From the NCBI RefSeq assembly GCF_001678675.1, contig NZ_LZRN01000006.1, positions 62,001-126,000 of the forward strand: 64,000 nucleotides of DNA. The letters run 5' to 3'. This stretch comes from Gelidibacter algens. Its GTDB lineage: Bacteria; Bacteroidota; Bacteroidia; Flavobacteriales; Flavobacteriaceae. Shown piece after piece: positions 32,499-40,273 of the stretch (the first letter of the stretch is position 1; the number at the start of each line of letters is the position of its first letter). The position numbers and the translations under genes were made by a program. Below the pieces are notes generated by a model that saw only the letters and a program-made list of their open reading frames with translations, ran no database searches and had not been told where the DNA came from.

Positions 32499-32895
32499 AT
32501 CAGAACCTACAGAATACAAAAAAAGTCCTCGGCAAAGAACTTTTTTAAAATTTAACAACTTAGTTGAAAATTAATCGAAACTAAAAAACGGAACTTTTAA
32601 TAGTATCGAGGGAATACTCTTTGATGTAGCACATTATTTTGATACAGTAAATTTATAGCATTGGGCTGCACTCCAAAAACAAAATCGTTGTATGCCTCAA
32701 AATATTTGATAAAAAAGAGAAACGTGCACAAAACAACTGAAAACCGACATTTCGCTGAAAAAAAGCCTCAAAATAAATCTTTCAAATAAATCCAACCTTT
32801 AAAAGTTGGGAATGACTGAAAATCTTCAATTCCATTAATTTACACCGTCGACCCCTATCAAGCCAATAGAAAAACTCTTAATTTAAGGCCATATC
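32499..32895. other. Intergenic stretch with a weak hairpin
   Basis: About 400 bp between convergent genes. A hairpin aaaaaagt / acttttttt-like at 32519-32546 with a 12-nt loop could be a weak terminator for the DCC gene. No coding frame or repeat is convincing in the remainder. Confidence 0.45.
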
Positions 32896-33936
32896 TTATA
32901 ATGTTGCCAATCTGCTATTGTACAAATAATCTTTATACATACTCTTGTAATAAACTTTACGCTCAATCGATTCAATCACGGGAGTTGCAAAATCAGCATC
33001 GTACATTTGCCCCATTACATTTAATCCGCCAGGACTGAACACGTTTATTTCCATCAGTTTTGAGCCCACGATATCAATTCCTACCAAAAACATACCGTCT
33101 TGCACAAGTTTAGGTCTCACAATATCTGCCAGCTCCATGATTTGATCGGTCATCTTAACTTTTTGGGGTTGCCCACCTGCGTGAATATTACTTCTGATAT
33201 CTCCGGAGGCATTTACGCGCTGCATTATGGCATATTGCCCGTTGGCCTTCAACGGTTCGCCATTCATTAAAAATAAACGTGTGTCGCCTTTTGTGGCTTC
33301 GGTTAGATATTCTTGTGCAATCACAAAGCCGTCTCTACAAATGGCATCAATAGTTTGCGAAAGGTTGTGTTCATTTTTTTTATCCATCATAAACACATTG
33401 GTACCTCCTGAGCCTTGCAATGGTTTAAGGATCATTTTTTGTTTCTGGTCCTTGAAAAACTCTTTGATTTCGTTGTGATCTCTGGTGATGATGGTTTTTG
33501 GACGGAGGATTTCAGGAAAATGCTGAAAGTACATTTTGTTGACAGCGCCAGCTAAGCTACTGGGATGGTTAAGAACAATAACGCCGTTTGCCGCAGCAAT
33601 TTCACCAAAAATAAAGGCCGCATTATAGGCCCAATCACGTTCATTGATTTCATCGGCAGGATTGTTTCTTAAGAACAGGACATCCAAATTTTTGGATGAC
33701 ATATTAACAAATTCTTCCTTTTGCAGGGCTTTAAAATACGTTTCTTCACTTTTAAAAACCCTGTCTTTTATAGTTTTGCAGCGTACTGACAGATGCCCTT
33801 GAGAGGCATATGACAGCTCGCCAACACCAATAAAAAATACGTCATGCCCTCTTTTGTAGGCCGCATAGCCCAAAGCGGGCGTTGTATAATTCCATTTTTC
33901 TGTGGAATGTTCATTTATTATAAATCCTATTTTCAT
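32896..33936 (-). CDS. GshB-like ATP-grasp ligase
   Basis: A 346-residue protein. The N-terminal half resembles the prokaryotic glutathione synthetase N-domain (IGFIINEHSTEKWNYTTPAL). The C-terminal half is an ATP-grasp fold: MILKPLQGSGGTNVFMMDKK (glycine-rich loop), FVIAQEYLTEATKGDTRLFLMNGEP, and GMFLVGIDIVGSKLMEINVFSPGGLNVMGQ with the metal-binding Glu/Asn. It makes an amide from an acyl phosphate. It is the last gene of a three-gene operon, 5 bp after the QEGLA gene. No gamma-glutamylcysteine ligase is in the window and BshA is present, so a glutathione-synthesis role is doubtful. Confidence 0.88.
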   Translation of the reverse strand: MKIGFIINEHSTEKWNYTTPALGYAAYKRGHDVFFIGVGELSYASQGHLSVRCKTIKDRVFKSEETYFKALQKEEFVNMSSKNLDVLFLRNNPADEINERDWAYNAAFIFGEIAAANGVIVLNHPSSLAGAVNKMYFQHFPEILRPKTIITRDHNEIKEFFKDQKQKMILKPLQGSGGTNVFMMDKKNEHNLSQTIDAICRDGFVIAQEYLTEATKGDTRLFLMNGEPLKANGQYAIMQRVNASGDIRSNIHAGGQPQKVKMTDQIMELADIVRPKLVQDGMFLVGIDIVGSKLMEINVFSPGGLNVMGQMYDADFATPVIESIERKVYYKSMYKDYLYNSRLATL

Positions 33937-33941
33937 TTTAT

Positions 33942-35780
33942 TTAATTTACAAGTTCAACAATGGTAATGCCTTCACGTAGCTTTTGTAATCGTAATTTTA
34001 CGTCGTTACGATCTAAAAATCTTGGTAAAATAGGCTCTTTCAAAACCTTTCGGTAAAGTAATTCTTCAATTAATTTAATATGCGTCACATTAAACTTACC
34101 TGTATAAAGAGGTTCAAGCTTGCCACCGTTTTTCAAATAGGCCATTAAATCAATTAGTCCTGCAAGATAGACCGCATCTTTTGTTAGTCCGCCGCCTCTA
34201 AATACACGCATCGTAATGTAATACGCAGTACGCTCAGAGAATGAATAGGTTTCTCTTAGCATATCAAAAGTTTCTATAAAGCTGGCATTATCAACCATAG
34301 ATTGTACAGCAATAACCCGTCCTGCCAAAAGCCTGAGTCTATTAACTGTTAAACCTCCCACCAAATACTCTGCTATTACCGCTAAGCCTTCCTGCAATTG
34401 ATCATAGCCTTCAAAACCTTCATACATTTGCTTCAAGGGTTGGCTTTTTCCATTACAATAGGTTAAGATATGTGTACCAATTTCATGCTGAATAAGCGCG
34501 TCACATCTATTGGCATCAAGGTCCATTTCAATATTTATGAGTAATTTTGACTTTGAGACCATGATGCCTGCAACATCATCCCTAATTTCAATACCGAGGT
34601 CTAAATCTGGAAATAGTTCTACATAATGATTCATTTCTCTTTGTGCGTATGCTGCAAATTCTACCCCGTTTAAACGCTTTGAACTTTTAATGTTTTCTGT
34701 TTGGGGGTATACTTTTAAAATATGCTCTGCAGTGGCTAAAACGTCTTCTCTAATCACGCCATAGAGACTTTCTCCTATAAATCTAAAATTATCAGTACCG
34801 CGTTCCTCCAGCATAATCAGTTGCTTTTCTATTTCAAGACGTTTACCTCTCAAAATAAAGGCTATGGTGGGGTCTTCTATAAGATCTAAAGGGATGTTAT
34901 AAAGTTTACGTTTTTCAAGTTCCGGATCAATGGCAAGGAGTCTGTATTTGAAAGAAGGAACGGTTTTGAATTGATTTTGCTCAAATTTGTCCCATTCTTC
35001 ATTACTGTTTACAGGTGTAACTCTTAGCAGGAAAGACATACCTTCACTAATCTCTGCCAATTTTGCATCTGATGATAAGGTCACCTCATCAATGTGGGTT
35101 TTACCAAGCATCAAATAGTTTTCAAATGCATCTGTAGTTTGCACTCTTATAAATTCATAAACAGCCCTTTTAATTGTTTCGGAGAAAATGGTATAAAACT
35201 TCCTGAAAAACAGAGTGAACAATTTATTGGTGTACGTGTTTTTGTAAACTACCGGTATTGAAATTCCTATAATCAGTGTTCCTGATTTTTTAGACGCATT
35301 AATATCTAGTAAAGACGTTAAGTGTTTTGGGTGCCTAAATTCCGTTTGGATGATTTTACAACTTACATTGGACAAGGTTTTTTTGATTTCGCTAAACCCA
35401 TCGCTTAAAGCATTCACCGTCTCCAATGATTTATTTTTAGGAGCGTAAATTTGAAACTGATTTCTCAAAGAGTCCTCGTTTGGCCATAATTCTAAGATCA
35501 AAAAAGTATCAAACTTTTCAGAAGTCATTAGTCTAATGGCTTCCAATAGATGCGAAATATCAATACTTTCGTCCACAATAACATAAGACGCCTGTGTTTT
35601 CAAAAGCCTTGAAAAATAAACATCTCGCTCTTTAAATCTGTAAACACAAATAAAGGGAAGCAGTTTATCAATATGCAATAAGCCTTTTCTTGGCAACGCC
35701 ACATTTACTGGAACATTTTCAGTAATATTTTTGCAAATTGTTTCAATTAATTCAGCAGCTATATGGTGTTGTTCAATCAT
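33942..35780 (-). CDS. QEGLA-motif metallopeptidase (DUF1704, MATCAP-like)
   Basis: A 612-residue protein. The C-terminal half carries the zinc motif HEIGTH (His432, Glu433, His437) and the family-naming QEGLA block (Glu464 in QLQEGLAVIAEYL), followed by RVFRGGGLTKDAVYLAGLIDLM. This is the DUF1704 / 'flavohemoglobin expression-modulating QEGLA' family, which includes the eukaryotic tubulin tyrosine carboxypeptidase MATCAP. The N-terminal ~350 residues are less conserved. Stop of the upstream gene and this ATG abut (TAAATG). Predicted activity: zinc carboxypeptidase; the substrate is unknown. No secretion signal, so probably cytoplasmic. Confidence 0.88.
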   Translation of the reverse strand: MIEQHHIAAELIETICKNITENVPVNVALPRKGLLHIDKLLPFICVYRFKERDVYFSRLLKTQASYVIVDESIDISHLLEAIRLMTSEKFDTFLILELWPNEDSLRNQFQIYAPKNKSLETVNALSDGFSEIKKTLSNVSCKIIQTEFRHPKHLTSLLDINASKKSGTLIIGISIPVVYKNTYTNKLFTLFFRKFYTIFSETIKRAVYEFIRVQTTDAFENYLMLGKTHIDEVTLSSDAKLAEISEGMSFLLRVTPVNSNEEWDKFEQNQFKTVPSFKYRLLAIDPELEKRKLYNIPLDLIEDPTIAFILRGKRLEIEKQLIMLEERGTDNFRFIGESLYGVIREDVLATAEHILKVYPQTENIKSSKRLNGVEFAAYAQREMNHYVELFPDLDLGIEIRDDVAGIMVSKSKLLINIEMDLDANRCDALIQHEIGTHILTYCNGKSQPLKQMYEGFEGYDQLQEGLAVIAEYLVGGLTVNRLRLLAGRVIAVQSMVDNASFIETFDMLRETYSFSERTAYYITMRVFRGGGLTKDAVYLAGLIDLMAYLKNGGKLEPLYTGKFNVTHIKLIEELLYRKVLKEPILPRFLDRNDVKLRLQKLREGITIVELVN

Positions 35781-36611
35781 TTAATTGGAATATATATTAT
35801 AAAAATTTGAAGCGTGTTCAGGAAGCCGCTTTTTAAGACCTTTTCTAATGGCAGACACCACTTCTGGGTATGAGACTTGACCTTCTTCATCACAATATAT
35901 TTTAGCCACTTCTGTAGCCAAGACCAAAGAGTTATCGAAATTGTTGGTAATAAATTTTAAAAAATAGCCATTTCCTTGGAAGGTATCATTTACTTTGGCT
36001 GTTGTTGGGATACCATTAGGCAGTTTAATTTCAGATAATTCTTTCCTCCAATCTTCCACCGAATTTCTGTAGCGTTCATTATCAATATTTGAAGTCCCTA
36101 AATTCCAGGTTGGCACTTCTCTGTCCCAACGTTTCCAATTATAGCTATGCATATCATAAACAATACAGCATCCAAATTTCATCTCCAACGTTTTAATGAG
36201 CGCATAAACAACTTTATAAAAATTTTGATGTTTTTCAAGACTTCTTGACTTCTCATCTTCAGTCAATGGTTCTTTCCACAGTTGTTTGCCCCAAGCATCT
36301 TCATAGATTGCAGTATCAGGGTCTCTGTTTAAATCATATTCAAATCTTGAGTCTAGGCCCGAAATCACTATAGGATGGGGTTTCAACATGTTTTTGGTTT
36401 TTGGATCTTCTTCATACCAACGGTCATATTCCGAATGCAGACATTTTGACCATAATTCTTTCCGGAACTGATGCCCGTTATGTATTGCTGCACAAGCATA
36501 GGGTACATAGTCGTCAATTTTGATAGTGAAGGAATAATCAGAGGCCACGGCATGAAATAACTCTTCAGATTCAATTTTTGAGATAATGTCTTTAACTGAT
36601 AATTTCCGCAT
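35781..36611 (-). CDS. N-formylglutamate amidohydrolase-family protein
   Basis: A 276-residue protein of the FGase/HutG-like family: VPYACAAIHNGHQF at the start, LIVYDMHSYN-type CCIVYDMHSYNWKRW metal-binding segment, then TWNLGTSNIDNERY and NDTFQGNGYFLKF. The family hydrolyses N-formyl-L-glutamate and similar N-acyl amino acids using zinc. No other histidine-degradation (hut) gene is present. It heads the operon with the QEGLA peptidase and the ATP-grasp ligase, pointing to a specialised amide substrate. It is cytoplasmic. Confidence 0.87.
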   Translation of the reverse strand: MRKLSVKDIISKIESEELFHAVASDYSFTIKIDDYVPYACAAIHNGHQFRKELWSKCLHSEYDRWYEEDPKTKNMLKPHPIVISGLDSRFEYDLNRDPDTAIYEDAWGKQLWKEPLTEDEKSRSLEKHQNFYKVVYALIKTLEMKFGCCIVYDMHSYNWKRWDREVPTWNLGTSNIDNERYRNSVEDWRKELSEIKLPNGIPTTAKVNDTFQGNGYFLKFITNNFDNSLVLATEVAKIYCDEEGQVSYPEVVSAIRKGLKKRLPEHASNFYNIYSN

Positions 36612-36833
36612 ATGCTAAAATTTTAATTAAATTTAAAATTAGTGCTTTCAAAATAGGTAGACTGACTCATATCATAGCAATTGTGTCGGTAATTGATTTG
36701 TCATACAGTATTAAGAATTTATTAAGAGTTTACTAAGTTTCAGTCTGCCTAAGTACATCAGAAACTTCTGTAAATTATAATATTTTACGTGTGATTTTTG
36801 GGATACATTTGCCAACTTATTTTAAACATTGCG

Positions 36834-37739
36834 ATGAACTCTAAATATTATGTTGCAGTTATTACCGCCTTTAGCATTTGGGGCTTTTTTAGTGTGGTGC
36901 TCAAGTCTCTTGAAGCATTTACAGCATTTGATATTTTGAGCTATCGAACCTTAGGTTCTGTTGTTATTATGCTTTTTGTGTCGTTACTGCTTCGGCCAAA
37001 GGCTTTGAAAGCAAATTTAGATTTGTTCAAAGGATTGGGGCAGCTAGACAAACGACGGATTATCATTGTCAACATTCTGAGTGGTCTCTTCTTGGCTTTA
37101 AATTGGTATATCTATATCTATGTAATGAACAATGTTAGCGTAAGTGCTACGTCATTGGCCTATTTGATATGTCCTATTTTAACCATGGTGTTGGCGTATG
37201 CAATTCTGAAGGAAAAGCTTTTTAAATTGCAGTGGGTTGCTGTGGCATTGAGTTTGACAGGATGTTTGATGCTCTCTTTAGGTAATTTAACTGACTTGTT
37301 TTACAGTATGATTATTGCACTTACCTACGCTTTGTATTTGGTTTTACAACGAAAGAATCAAGAGATGGATCGGTTTTTAGTCTTAACCTGTCAGGTTTTT
37401 TTTGCGGTTCTTTTTCTTTTGCCATTTATAGTCACCTACGATTCTCCAAATGAAAAAACACCTTTTTTCTATGGCATGTTGGCATTAATCGCGGTGGTAT
37501 TCACCATTATTCCAATGTTTCTTAATATTTATGCGCTAAGAGGTTTAAACTCGTCTGTTGTAGGTGTTTTTATTTATTTAAATCCGCTCATCAATTTTAT
37601 GTTCGCCATTTTCTATTTTGATGAAAAGGTCAGTTTTTTGGAAGCGATATGTTATTTTCTCATCCTTGTTTCTATTGTCATTTTTAATTTTTCAGCGATA
37701 AAAAACAGGATCAACAGAAGGCGCGCGGCACATATTTAA
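36834..37739 (+). CDS. rarD: RarD/EamA-family transporter
   Basis: A 301-residue integral membrane protein with ten predicted transmembrane helices in two EamA repeats. ATG at 36834 is chosen because the frame from TTG 36798 adds a poor leader. Characteristic segments are FSIWGFFSVVLKSL in helix 1, SLAYLICPILTMVLAYAILKEKL and NSSVVGVFIYLNPLINFMFAIFYFDEKV near the end. RarD was linked to chloramphenicol resistance by name only; family members export metabolites or amino acids. It converges on the sulfurtransferase gene with no terminator seen. Confidence 0.88.
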   Translation: MNSKYYVAVITAFSIWGFFSVVLKSLEAFTAFDILSYRTLGSVVIMLFVSLLLRPKALKANLDLFKGLGQLDKRRIIIVNILSGLFLALNWYIYIYVMNNVSVSATSLAYLICPILTMVLAYAILKEKLFKLQWVAVALSLTGCLMLSLGNLTDLFYSMIIALTYALYLVLQRKNQEMDRFLVLTCQVFFAVLFLLPFIVTYDSPNEKTPFFYGMLALIAVVFTIIPMFLNIYALRGLNSSVVGVFIYLNPLINFMFAIFYFDEKVSFLEAICYFLILVSIVIFNFSAIKNRINRRRAAHI

Positions 37740-37928: not shown

Positions 37929-38741
37929 TTATTCCGTTAAAGTTCCATATTCTGTCCAAGAGCCGTCGTAAACAGAAATGTTATTGTAATCAGCTAAGGT
38001 CGCTCCGAGCGCCACAACACAAGCTGTTATACCAGAACCGCATGAAAAGGTCAGTGCGTCTGATGGTTTGGCTAGCGTATTGAAGATATGTTTTAATTCA
38101 TTAGTGCTTTTAAGACAATACTCGTCTATTAGACTTTCAAAAGGTAAATTAATCGAATTTGGAATCGTACCTCTTCTCAAACCGGCCTTTGGTTCATCAA
38201 CCAGACAATTAAAGCGTTTTTCCGACCGTGCATCAATAATAATTTGAGACTTATCTTGAGTTTCAGCGCTGACATCCTCGAAAGATTTCATCAAATTGTT
38301 ATCCTTAAGGCCAACAAAATTGCCTTTCTGTCCCTTATATGATTGATAGGGCCCAGTCTTGTATTTGAATTTATTCCATTCAGGAAGTCCACCGTCCAAA
38401 ACAGCGACATTGTGATGACCAAACACCCTGAAAAGCCACCACGCCCTTGCACTCGAATAAATCCCTTTATCGTCATAAACAACGATAACACTATCTTTAT
38501 TTATGCCAAGAGTTTGTGCTTCTTGTGTAAACTGCCCTTCTGAAGGACATGTGCTCGGAAAGGGTGCTAAAACATCACTAAATTTAATTTTAATATCAAA
38601 AAACCGTGTGTGTGGAATTAGTCTTTCAGCTAAAACAGTTTCAGATACTTCACCTGCTTTTGGAATGCTGGCATTCAAAACAATAAGCTCGGGTGCTTCT
38701 AAATTATCTTTTAGCCACTTAACTGACACGATAGGATGCAT
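37929..38741 (-). CDS. sseA: Thiosulfate/3-mercaptopyruvate sulfurtransferase
   Basis: A 270-residue tandem rhodanese. The N-terminal inactive domain (IVSVKWLKDNLEAPELIVLNAS) is followed by the active domain with the catalytic loop FSCGSGITACVVALG; CGSGITA is the mercaptopyruvate-type signature (active-site Cys in CGSGIT). It transfers sulfur to thiols or cyanide and contributes to cysteine and sulfide metabolism. It is cytoplasmic and lies 12 bp downstream of the symporter gene on the same strand, so the two may be co-transcribed. Confidence 0.9.
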   Translation of the reverse strand: MHPIVSVKWLKDNLEAPELIVLNASIPKAGEVSETVLAERLIPHTRFFDIKIKFSDVLAPFPSTCPSEGQFTQEAQTLGINKDSVIVVYDDKGIYSSARAWWLFRVFGHHNVAVLDGGLPEWNKFKYKTGPYQSYKGQKGNFVGLKDNNLMKSFEDVSAETQDKSQIIIDARSEKRFNCLVDEPKAGLRRGTIPNSINLPFESLIDEYCLKSTNELKHIFNTLAKPSDALTFSCGSGITACVVALGATLADYNNISVYDGSWTEYGTLTE

Positions 38742-38753
38742 AATTGCTGATGG

Positions 38754-40199
38754 TTAAGAATCGAGATCAAATGTTTCCGTTGGGCTTTTATGATCTTTAT
38801 AATCCATCATGTTTTCGCCATCGGCTATAATAGAACAAACCGTGGCATCTCCAGTAACGTTAACCACGGTTCTGAACATGTCCAGAATCCGGTCCACTGG
38901 AAAAATAATTGCAATCCAAGCGGGATTTAGTCCTACAGAATCCAACACAATAATCAACATGACCAAACCTGCACTCGGCACTGCGGCTGAGCCAATAGAT
39001 GCTAACGTAGTGGTCATCACAACGGTCAATTGCTGGCCAATAGTCAAATCAATCATATGTAATTGCGCCAAGAATATAACGGCAACTGCTTGGTAAAGAC
39101 TCGTCCCATCCATGTTGACAGTAGCTCCAATAGGGAGTACAAAACTGCTTATTTTTTTGTTGACGCCAAGGTTTTGCTCTACACACTCCATTGTTACAGG
39201 AAGTGTTGCTGCACTACTGGATGTAGAGAATGCCAAGGTTTGCGCTGGGCTCATAGCTTTAAAGAAGCCTGCGTAAGGAATTCTTTTAACAAAACCCTTC
39301 AATATTAAAGGATAGGTTACAAATATCATGATGAGGAGCCCCGATAGAACCGTCAAGGAATACCAACTCAAGCCTTTGAAAATTTCAATTACCTTTCCAA
39401 TATCATTACCTGCCATTTTGCTAACGACCCCTGCCAATAATGCAAATACAAAAAATGGTGCAGCTTGCATGACAATATCTACCATTTTGAGGAAGACCTC
39501 ATTGATGCCATCGACCAATTTTAGCACAGGACCCGATTTATCATCGGGAATAAACAGCAGACAGACTCCAAAGAAAATTGCGAAAAAGATAATTTGCAAC
39601 ATCAGGCCATTGTTGGAGAGTGCATAAAAGAAATTATCAGGCACAATATCCACCAATGGCTGTAAGGGTGTGGATTCCTTTTGCTTACCGGCAGTTTCAA
39701 TCTTATCTGAAACAGAAACTTCTCTCAAATCCTTTTTGGTCAAATCAGAAATTTCCTGTGCTCTTTTAAAAAATTTAGGATCTTTTAAATAATTGATCCC
39801 ATCTTTAATTTGATACCCTTGCGAATCTGCCCAGATTTCATAGTTGATCCGGTTGTCTATTCGGCTTTGCTTGTCAATAAGTTCGCCTGGTTTTACCGTG
39901 TTTACCAATAAGAGTCCAAGTGAAATTGCAAGAATTGTGGTTACTAAATAGATAAGTAAGGTCTTCCCTCCCATTCTTCCTAAACTCGACGGGTCTCCAA
40001 TATTAGCAACACCACTTATAATTGAAAATAATACTAAAGGAACGGCAATCAACTTTAATAAGTTGATGAAAATGGTTCCAAACGGATCAATCCAGTTGAT
40101 GGTAAATGCGCTCCAGCCCATAGTGCTGGAAACTAATGCCCAAATAATACCAAGGACCATTCCGATGATGATTTTCCAGTGTAATGCTAGTTTCTTCAT
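38754..40199 (-). CDS. Dicarboxylate/amino acid:cation symporter (DAACS)
   Basis: A ~481-residue transporter started at MKKLALHWKIIIGM (ATG 40199; an ATG three codons upstream is possible). Key motifs are ALAFSTSSSAATLPVTME (serine-rich hairpin), GATVNMDGTSLYQAVA and the substrate-binding VDRILDMFRTVVNVTGDAT. It carries out Na+ or H+-coupled uptake of glutamate/aspartate or C4-dicarboxylates. An ~80-residue polar loop between helices 3 and 4 (~120-200) is longer than usual. Eight transmembrane helices and two re-entrant loops are expected. Confidence 0.92.
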   Translation of the reverse strand: MKKLALHWKIIIGMVLGIIWALVSSTMGWSAFTINWIDPFGTIFINLLKLIAVPLVLFSIISGVANIGDPSSLGRMGGKTLLIYLVTTILAISLGLLLVNTVKPGELIDKQSRIDNRINYEIWADSQGYQIKDGINYLKDPKFFKRAQEISDLTKKDLREVSVSDKIETAGKQKESTPLQPLVDIVPDNFFYALSNNGLMLQIIFFAIFFGVCLLFIPDDKSGPVLKLVDGINEVFLKMVDIVMQAAPFFVFALLAGVVSKMAGNDIGKVIEIFKGLSWYSLTVLSGLLIMIFVTYPLILKGFVKRIPYAGFFKAMSPAQTLAFSTSSSAATLPVTMECVEQNLGVNKKISSFVLPIGATVNMDGTSLYQAVAVIFLAQLHMIDLTIGQQLTVVMTTTLASIGSAAVPSAGLVMLIIVLDSVGLNPAWIAIIFPVDRILDMFRTVVNVTGDATVCSIIADGENMMDYKDHKSPTETFDLDS

Positions 40200-40273
40200 A
40201 AGCTGCATTCCTGCAAAGGCAAGAATCTTTTCTATTAATTAATTATAAATTATAAAGCTCAAGGCATCTCAAT

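Follow-up and report, generated by a model that had tools for sequence, protein, structure and literature searches.

In the 64,000-nucleotide stretch of Gelidibacter algens DNA analysed here (the window), three minus-strand genes coding for an FGase-family hydrolase, a QEGLA/MATCAP-family protein and a GshB-like ATP-grasp ligase form an operon that most likely represents a third ligase/peptidase module of the kind known from rim and rlo. We give an even chance to a function in attaching an amino acid, glutamate being the likeliest, to a protein or peptide and removing it again.

The operon and its conserved neighbourhood

The following features of the operon and its flanks were recognised:

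35781..36611, minus strand: gene 1, FGase-family zinc amidohydrolase, 276 aa, type-B lineage (PF05013)
33942..35780, minus strand: gene 2, QEGLA/MATCAP-family protein, long form, 612 aa (PF08014)
32896..33936, minus strand: gene 3, GshB-like ATP-grasp ligase, 346 aa, PRK12458 subfamily, type A (NF009110)
32792..32809, minus strand: terminator-like hairpin directly 3' of gene 3 (consensus match only)
37929..38741, minus strand: rhodanese-like sulfurtransferase (PF00581)
38754..40208, minus strand: SDF-family (dicarboxylate/glutamate-type) symporter (PF00375, 399 bits)

The genes follow one another in the order FGase, QEGLA/MATCAP and GshB-like ligase, with intergenic gaps of 0 and 5 bp; the outer coordinates and the gaps are the same as those from which an earlier sequence-only reading had proposed a single minus-strand operon. 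The Bacteroidetes -7 motif, TAnnTTTG, was found 84 times across the window against 86.6 expected, with no excess over chance, and no minus-strand copy was present between the FGase start and position 36800. Matches to sigma-70 type promoters in the window were at chance level (17 versus 15.7).

Beyond the window, the gene set is present in Flavobacteriaceae, in further Bacteroidota and in Rhizobiales, and Photobacterium has a relative of it; the order FGase-QEGLA-GshB is identical in Gelidibacter, other Bacteroidota and Rhizobiales. The sample used for the distribution consisted of Bacteroidota and plasmids, Proteobacteria being represented through plasmid records only; a scan of genome contigs found nine Gelidibacter loci and one Lacinutrix locus. 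Pairing of QEGLA and ligase exceeds chance in Flavobacteriaceae, where a listed ligase of PRK12458 type lay no more than 6 kb from at least 131 of the 150 PF08014 places listed and, reciprocally, a listed QEGLA gene lay within the same distance of at least 136 of the 150 ligase places listed. Arrangements were counted in 63 inspected neighbourhoods, partly chosen by hand: FGase-QEGLAlong-GshB occurred in 16/63, QEGLAlong-GshB-AstE, with an AstE gene in the place of FGase, in another 16, GshB-FGase-QEGLAshort in 17 and the QEGLAlong-GshB pair only in nine, the five others carrying QEGLA with neither ligase nor other module neighbours. The window operon is a hybrid, with its FGase coming from one module lineage (type B) and its QEGLA and ligase (type A) from another. 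At loci L033 and L047 FGase is fused to QEGLA, both halves retaining their catalytic residues. An apparent QEGLA-GshB fusion of 914 aa at L041 was discarded as a spurious long ORF, because the two matches sit in different frames. In the open-access literature, which leaves most subscription journals aside, we found no description of the FGase/QEGLA/ATP-grasp set, nor any substrate or activity for a bacterial member of the QEGLA module.

As for the flanking genes, the rhodanese lies inside the operon at L022, L034, L037, L090 and L095, and is separated from it in the window by a divergent transporter gene. A DCC1-type thiol-disulfide gene often adjoins the module. The nearest NCBIfam model of the SDF symporter is GltP, far under its cut-off. 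The best clusters of small ORFs beside the module covered 3/16 AstE-type and 2/11 FGase-type loci (the window and the Gelidibacter locus L016), and a precursor peptide was rejected as a widely conserved component at these loci. One further cluster, present in 8/9 pair-only loci, is probably a frame within a conserved neighbouring gene.

Predicted folds and family assignments of the three proteins

The QEGLA protein was divided as follows:

35106..35780, minus strand: residues 1-225, degenerate FGase-like domain (structure match, HHalign)
33945..35087, minus strand: residues 232-612, predicted MATCAP-fold metallocarboxypeptidase domain (human MATCAP 7z5g)
34470..34487, minus strand: residues 432-437, HEIGTH, HExxxH metal-binding motif (alignment)
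34389..34391, minus strand: E464, presumed third metal ligand (alignment)

It matches Pfam PF08014 (MATCAP) with 319.8 bits (cut-off 27) and falls short of the QEGLA hypothetical equivalog TIGR02421 (307.5 versus 338.65 bits). The AlphaFold2 model (pLDDT 91.6, pTM 0.87) superposes on human MATCAP 7z5g over residues 251-610 (Z 24.1, rmsd 3.0, 290 aligned; Foldseek E 9.9e-9), with ≈20% identity in the structural alignment and weak sequence likeness (phmmer E 0.093). Residues H432, E433, H437, Q463, E464, G465 and A467 are invariant in the alignment of 40 long forms, window included; among 45 aligned long and short forms, HExxxH is retained in 44, being missing in L123, and QEG likewise in 44. 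According to the accessible part of PMC10499314, human TMCP1/MATCAP has EEG at the corresponding motif, and TMCP1/2 are tubulin carboxypeptidases and deglutamylases. Judging from alignment and predicted model, the bacterial QEGLA protein is presumed to be a MATCAP-type metallocarboxypeptidase. The sequence-only reading, which had recognised HEIGTH and Glu464 and had placed the protein in the family of MATCAP, was right in both respects. It had also expected its hypothesis to suffer from neighbourhoods confined to close relatives or from a QEGLA model unlike MATCAP; neither objection applies, since the neighbourhood is conserved in two phyla and the model has the MATCAP fold with HExxxH and the glutamate. 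A third objection it had raised, a ligase that makes glutathione, has indirect evidence against it for the window's type and less so for type B. What it overlooked is the degenerate FGase domain, the hybrid history of the operon, the AstE version and the parallels with rim and rlo.

The N-terminal 215 residues of the long form resemble FGase most closely and are probably a degenerate FGase domain. In the predicted model, the top PDB match for residues 30-215 is the FGase 2q7s (Z 13.4, rmsd 3.1, 173 aligned), and HHalign gives a collinear alignment with type-B FGase over residues 5-214 (E 1.9e-4, with a moderate probability of only 47). The FGase histidines have no counterpart in this domain, in which one column (36) among 225 is His-dominant. 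The domain may descend from an FGase-QEGLA fusion and may now bind a substrate or a partner.

Gene 1 passes the Pfam cut-off for FGase PF05013 (48.7 versus 28.9 bits) and its AlphaFold2 model (pLDDT 94.2) matches FGase 2q7s (Z 24.8, rmsd 2.4, 236 aligned) and 2odf (Z 21.9), with 1yw4 also among the structure matches (Z 11.0). H44, H47, D153, H155 and E234 are invariant in 27 sequences; based on the M14/FGase fold, we take H44, H47 and H155 to be ligands and E234 to be catalytic. No relation between the FGase and AstE sequences was detectable by HHalign (E 0.45); the two are linked by their operon position and by M14-like folds, as the 1yw4 match of the FGase model also suggests. The module's AstE scores best with aspartoacylase and the AstE beside RimK with DoeB, both below cut-off.

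Gene 3 had been read from sequence as an ATP-grasp enzyme, in agreement with its score for PF02955 GSH-S_ATP (177.6 bits, cut-off 23) and with the ATP-grasp residues it keeps, K171, R248-S249-N250, D288, E296 and N298 being invariant in 26 sequences. It passes the cut-off of NF009110 (PRK12458; 424.9 versus 408 bits) and misses both glutathione-synthase equivalog cut-offs (NF003573, 217.6 versus 272; TIGR01380, 207.2 versus 299.05). It scores higher with GshB than with RimK models, missing the cut-off of RimK TIGR00768 (82.6 versus 143.4 bits) and sharing 29% identity over 191 aa with the RimK of its own genome. The TTL profile PF03133 gives 13.5 bits, under its cut-off of 20.1, and similarity to the graspetide ligases TIGR04185 and TIGR04187 is weak.

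Of the two γ-glutamylcysteine-ligase families searched, PF04262 was found in 0/299 Flavobacteriaceae genomes and is absent from the genome under study, in which GCS2 PF04107 lies on another contig, in another cluster. Both are absent, among the matches listed, from 113/148 QEGLA-positive Flavobacteriaceae genomes, which would therefore lack γ-glutamylcysteine made by these families. Because both equivalog cut-offs are missed and these 113 genomes have neither family, the window-type ligase is, on sequence grounds, unlikely to make glutathione. The glutathione reading is weakened less for the sister type B, one ligase of which (L030) passes NF003573 (281.6 versus 272) and fails TIGR01380 (237.4). 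In the annotated records inspected, the bacterial MATCAP relative is labelled 'flavohemoglobin expression-modulating QEGLA motif protein', and 'glutathione synthase' is the label of its partner. The findings for the window's type support neither label, and PRK12458 'glutathione synthetase' matches in Flavobacteriaceae should not be taken as glutathione synthesis without more proof.

Proposed role and alternative explanations

For the direction of the reactions, the glutamate, the C-terminal site and the substrate, we infer the following scheme, which keeps the reversible amino-acid addition proposed in the sequence-only reading. After activating a carboxylate with ATP, the ATP-grasp ligase would extend the C-terminus of a protein or peptide by an amino acid, likeliest glutamate. 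The MATCAP-type enzyme, by means of HExxxH and E464, would strip C-terminal residues off the ligase product, as MATCAP/TMCP does on tubulin, its counterpart in the rim module being RimB. The FGase, or the AstE-type enzyme of sister modules, would cut an amide bond in a released N-acyl amino acid or in the chain. In favour of this scheme are the conserved gene order, the FGase-QEGLA fusions, the MATCAP fold with its motif, the RimB-RimK-AstE parallel, the identity shared with RimK, and the joint rise of 'GshB', QEGLA and RimK at low salt in a published transcriptome of P. damselae. Points that weigh against it are the higher GshB than RimK scores of the ligase, the passing of NF003573 by L030, the rhodanese and DCC1-type neighbours, the five of 63 neighbourhoods in which QEGLA has no adjacent ligase, the weak sequence similarity to MATCAP, the moderate HHalign probability for the N-terminal domain and the six of 20 AstE loci with no RimK in the stretch read. 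A bolder combined reading, which we regard as improbable, would make the operon a full bacterial counterpart of the tubulin-tail code, writing and erasing C-terminal glutamates upon osmotic change, with eukaryotic MATCAP/TMCP descended from such a module and the dead FGase domain acting as substrate reader.

A small-molecule pathway, in which the ligase product would be a glutathione-like or γ-glutamyl/N-acyl peptide (a thiol or an osmolyte) degraded or trimmed by QEGLA and FGase/AstE, is possible, if rather doubtful. It would suit the GshB fold and PRK12458 assignment of the ligase and the score of L030 above the NF003573 cut-off, and the rhodanese and DCC1-type neighbours could point to a thiol peptide. 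FGase and AstE families use N-acyl amino acids as substrates. An osmolyte would also fit expression in P. damselae, where the accessible part of PMC10308900 gives increases at 1% versus 3% NaCl of 38.42-fold for 'GshB' (A0J47_RS17020), 27.51-fold for QEGLA (A0J47_RS17025) and 52.24-fold for RimK; adjacent locus tags and the arrangement in Photobacterium sp. DA100 (L047) suggest that this gshB/QEGLA pair is a type-B operon. Against such a pathway stand the equivalog scores of the window ligase, the distribution of PF04262 and PF04107, the position of the genome's own GCS2, and the action on protein tails of the MATCAP-type enzymes described in the accessible part of PMC10499314.

The SDF symporter raises the question of a catabolic or salvage operon, importing an acidic or N-acyl amino acid or peptide which FGase and QEGLA would hydrolyse, with the ligase recycling the product. 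The SDF gene is upstream of the module in 25/27 loci read, though with intervening genes in L118-L121; L122, L123 and L128 combine QEGLA and SDF with no ligase, and the FGase family belongs to histidine degradation. SDF-cluster genes are, however, absent from the 16 AstE-type loci and three rhizobial loci have no SDF annotation; gene 1 is far below the HutG deformylase cut-off TIGR02017 (16.9 versus 278.75 bits), and an ATP-consuming ligase would be unexpected in a purely degradative operon, so that we consider this explanation quite unlikely. Least credible of all, with very little probability, is a graspetide-like pathway, in which the ATP-grasp enzyme would modify a gene-encoded small precursor peptide and QEGLA would be a leader or tail peptidase: the combination of ATP-grasp and peptidase and the weak resemblance to TIGR04185 and TIGR04187 would fit, but no widely conserved small ORF adjoins the AstE-type and FGase-type loci, nor the pair-only loci if their cluster is a frame of the neighbouring gene.

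If the operon is the ligase/peptidase module we favour, the three-gene unit provides a common, testable role for the QEGLA, FGase and PRK12458 families, adds a third such module alongside rim and rlo, and gives a prokaryotic context to the MATCAP family, otherwise described on tubulin (PMC10499314, accessible part).

Comparison with known systems

By analogy, rim and rlo would be closer functional parallels than the tubulin cycle. In Pseudomonas, RimK extends RpsF by C-terminal glutamates, which RimB takes off again (PMC11957791, accessible part). The rim module likewise combines an ATP-grasp ligase and a peptidase in one operon, and RimB-RimK-AstE of Bacteroidota has the same three-part plan, its third partner (PF24827) being found also in the QEGLA-GshB-AstE version; among 20 AstE loci, RimK adjoins in 14 and RimB in 13, RimK being missing in six within the stretch read. 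RimB, however, is a retropepsin-like aspartic protease, whereas QEGLA is a metalloenzyme and gene 3 is of PRK12458/GshB type and not a RimK; no match to the retropepsin-like PF05618 was found among the three operon proteins. A PF05618 gene is present at L044. RloA/RloB/RloC of P. aeruginosa share the ATP-grasp enzyme, a polyglutamate-cutting protease and a link to low osmolarity, and differ in their secreted retropepsins and membrane transglutaminase-like protein; the description of their operon in the accessible part of PMC12239564 includes neither a MATCAP nor an FGase.

Bacterial QEGLA resembles MATCAP/TMCP1 (KIAA0895L) and TMCP2, all PF08014, in fold, HExxxH and the glutamate of the EG motif; its long form adds the degenerate FGase domain and the operon context of a GshB-like ligase, with no tubulin. 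TTL/TTLL ligases and CCP hydrolases are eukaryotic enzymes of tubulin tails, and together with MATCAP they make up the same three classes as the operon (ATP-grasp ligase, M14-like hydrolase and MATCAP peptidase), although the operon ligase is weakly TTL-like and the bacterial substrate cannot be tubulin. Gene 1 has the fold and catalytic residues of N-formylglutamate amidohydrolases (2q7s, 2odf) but is not HutG, and no histidine-degradation genes were seen adjoining it. Gene 3 is akin to prokaryotic glutathione synthetase GshB (1gsa) in sequence family and ATP-grasp residues, and departs from it in its sub-cut-off equivalog scores, its linkage to QEGLA and the absence of both γ-glutamylcysteine-ligase families searched from 113/148 QEGLA-positive genomes.

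Gene order of the operon and its recurrence

The three-gene minus-strand run described in the sequence-only reading was recovered by ORF calling with its positions, order and gaps of 0 and 5 bp as claimed, and each ORF scored above its Pfam cut-off:

35781-36611, minus strand, FGase ORF (PF05013)
33942-35780, minus strand, QEGLA ORF (PF08014)
32896-33936, minus strand, GshB-like ORF (PF02955)

Searching with the window QEGLA retrieved ten named loci, nine from Gelidibacter (79-87% identity) and one from Lacinutrix (69%), and the gene was present in 9/9 Gelidibacter genomes. PF08014 was detected in 15/247 and 19/395 genomes of two overlapping Bacteroidota samples and in 148/299 Flavobacteriaceae genomes, with up to three copies per genome in four of the latter (G405, G464, G623 and G654). 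In the 247-genome sample, a GshB-like ligase adjoined QEGLA in 13 of the 14 neighbourhoods from other genomes; 12 of the 14 carried an FGase, one an AstE-type gene instead and one a lone QEGLA. Among the Flavobacteriaceae matches listed, at least 131 of 150 QEGLA places had a PRK12458 ligase within 6 kb, and at least 136 of 150 ligase places had a QEGLA within the same distance. QEGLA also matched 127 plasmid records, to which rhizobial genera contribute at least 111. The window order FGase-QEGLA-GshB is given by annotation in Shinella, Pararhizobium and Sinorhizobium meliloti, and was found by profiles in S. meliloti 2011 and Phyllobacterium. A conserved three-gene neighbourhood beyond close relatives was indeed found, the order recurring in Bacteroidota and rhizobial genera. 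In Photobacterium sp. DA100 GshB is followed by an FGase-QEGLA fusion, and Pseudoalteromonas shioyasakiensis has QEGLA with the partner genes absent.

Arrangements were counted in 63 neighbourhoods with profiles built from our own data, the choice of loci being partly ours: 14 from the first Bacteroidota sample, two named-relative loci, six plasmid loci, the window, and 26 long-form and 14 short-form places sampled from the 395 Bacteroidota and the Flavobacteriaceae. FGase-QEGLAlong-GshBA (long-form QEGLA with a type A ligase, as in the window) accounted for 16/63, five of which (L022, L034, L035, L090 and L095) bear an additional type B ligase, GshBB, upstream. QEGLAlong-GshBA-AstE was equally frequent (16/63), with AstE on the opposite strand in L115 and two tandem GshBA between QEGLA and AstE in L105:3810-5963; in a further 9/63 QEGLAlong and GshBA had no third gene. 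GshBB-FGase-QEGLAshort was seen in 17/63, including two loci (L033 and L047) where FGase and QEGLA form a single protein whose halves both keep their catalytic residues. The remaining 5/63 (L029, L048, L122, L123 and L128) had QEGLA without module neighbours. In L048:7034-9260, on a Pseudoalteromonas megaplasmid, QEGLAshort adjoins a redoxin-family gene, with neither ligase nor FGase. On a Shinella plasmid (L046), copper nitrite reductase and NnrS genes lie a few kb from the module, perhaps a link to the "flavohemoglobin" in the family name.

Predicted structure of the QEGLA protein

The long-form QEGLA was modelled with AlphaFold2 from a 45-sequence alignment (pLDDT 91.6, pTM 0.87 for the window protein). 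The suggested kinship with MATCAP was borne out by the predicted fold: residues 251-610 match the human enzyme with Z 24.1 (290 residues, rmsd 3.0), ahead of the functionally uncharacterised Shewanella lipoprotein 3u24 (Z 14.7) and of M32 carboxypeptidases (Z 10-12); the sequence-only match was weak (E 0.093). HExxxH and QEG are retained in 44/45 aligned members, including the lone QEGLA L122; L128, also lone, lies outside the alignment. The exception, L123:5907-7058, is a QEGLAshort without ligase or hydrolase in which both motifs are lost (HEIGVN, QAGLA).

For residues 30-215 of the model, the best structural match was the FGase 2q7s (Z 13.4), followed by M14 carboxypeptidases, amidases and poly-γ-glutamate hydrolases (Z about 10). 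The model of the window FGase itself (pLDDT 94.2) gave Z 24.8 and 21.9 against known FGase structures. By HHalign, the N-terminal part aligned end-to-end with type-B FGase (E 1.9e-4, probability 47), E values being 0.0023 for type-A FGase, 0.029 for AstE, 0.23 for the ligase and 0.55 for short QEGLA. In the type-B alignment, the FGase residues H44 and H47 fall opposite a gap and H155 opposite W99, a column holding Trp, Tyr or Phe in 35/40 long forms; within the first 225 columns only column 36 is His-rich. Column 174 faces E234, the putative catalytic residue of FGase; 18/40 long forms have Glu there and the window protein has Ser. Column 97, facing D153, is Glu or Asp in 40/40. We read this region of the model as a putative FGase domain devoid of the metal site, in agreement with the FGase-QEGLA fusions found elsewhere.

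A common chromosomal site and hybrid loci

Among 27 loci bearing FGase or QEGLAshort whose context was read, an SDF symporter gene lies upstream in 25, and 24 of these 25 have chorismate synthase, DCC1 or MutS2 genes nearby; the module thus occupies roughly a single chromosomal position in Flavobacteriaceae. At this site GshBB-FGase-QEGLAshort occupies 15/25 loci and QEGLAshort alone 3/25. In the five loci with additional GshBB (L022 being from Lacinutrix), GshBB and FGase are retained and QEGLAlong with GshBA replaces QEGLAshort. GshBB is missing from the window and from Gelidibacter L016, where the gap is filled by a gene absent there from the other context loci:

36798-37739, divergent, EamA transporter, flanked by the rhodanese and FGase genes

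A 100/100 branch of the 33-sequence FGase tree separated the FGases of nine other long-form loci from 17 short-form and seven hybrid-locus sequences (window included), indicating that one FGase lineage operates beside either QEGLA/ligase pair. The internal order of the latter group is poorly resolved, the hybrid loci forming no single supported group.

Proposed reaction and comparison with rim and rlo

On comparative grounds, we favour a reversible modification in which an amino acid, probably glutamate, is added at a protein or peptide C-terminus: the ligase would write, joining the residue to the C-terminus, the MATCAP-type peptidase would erase it, and FGase or AstE would clear an amide product. 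The main rival is a small-peptide pathway in place of C-terminal modification. Against it, the window ligase scores above the NCBI PRK12458 subfamily cut-off but below those of the glutathione-synthase equivalogs, and both γ-glutamylcysteine ligase families searched, PF04262 (0/299 Flavobacteriaceae genomes) and GCS2 (58/299), are missing in 113 of the 148 QEGLA-positive genomes; association of GCS2 with QEGLA was not clear (35/148 vs 23/151, Fisher p 0.079). A point counted against our non-glutathione reading is that the type-B ligase of L030 exceeds the NF003573 cut-off, so that the type-B branch may have glutathione-like chemistry. The ATP-grasp residues are invariant across 26 ligases of both types. 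Elsewhere in the G. algens assembly (L043:6072-12404, contig C15), ATP-grasp-like genes, a GCS2 ligase (the sole member tested by profile) and glutamine-amidotransferase-like and esterase-like proteins form what looks like a further uncharacterised peptide-bond pathway.

The favoured C-terminal modification has a parallel in the same assembly, where RimB-type (PF05618), RimK and AstE-type genes stand in one run (L044:8580-10930, contig C50). This AstE was found in 37/118 Bacteroidota genomes; in the best 20 rim-type AstE loci RimK adjoins in 14, RimB in 13 and neither in six. The rim-side and module AstE are distant (27% over 132 aa). An ATP-grasp ligase and a hydrolase of the AstE family thus accompany each of two peptidases, RimB and QEGLA, that are themselves unrelated. 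According to the rim paper (PMC11957791), in which the words "succinylglutamate" and "aspartoacylase" are absent, RimK adds and RimB removes RpsF glutamates. In P. damselae at 1% vs 3% NaCl, PMC10308900 gives increases of 38.42-fold for "GshB" (A0J47_RS17020, discussed by the authors as glutathione synthetase), 27.51-fold for QEGLA (A0J47_RS17025) and 52.24-fold for RimK. RloA/RloC of P. aeruginosa (PMC12239564) is another ligase/peptidase pair like RimK/RimB, with RloA required at low osmolarity.
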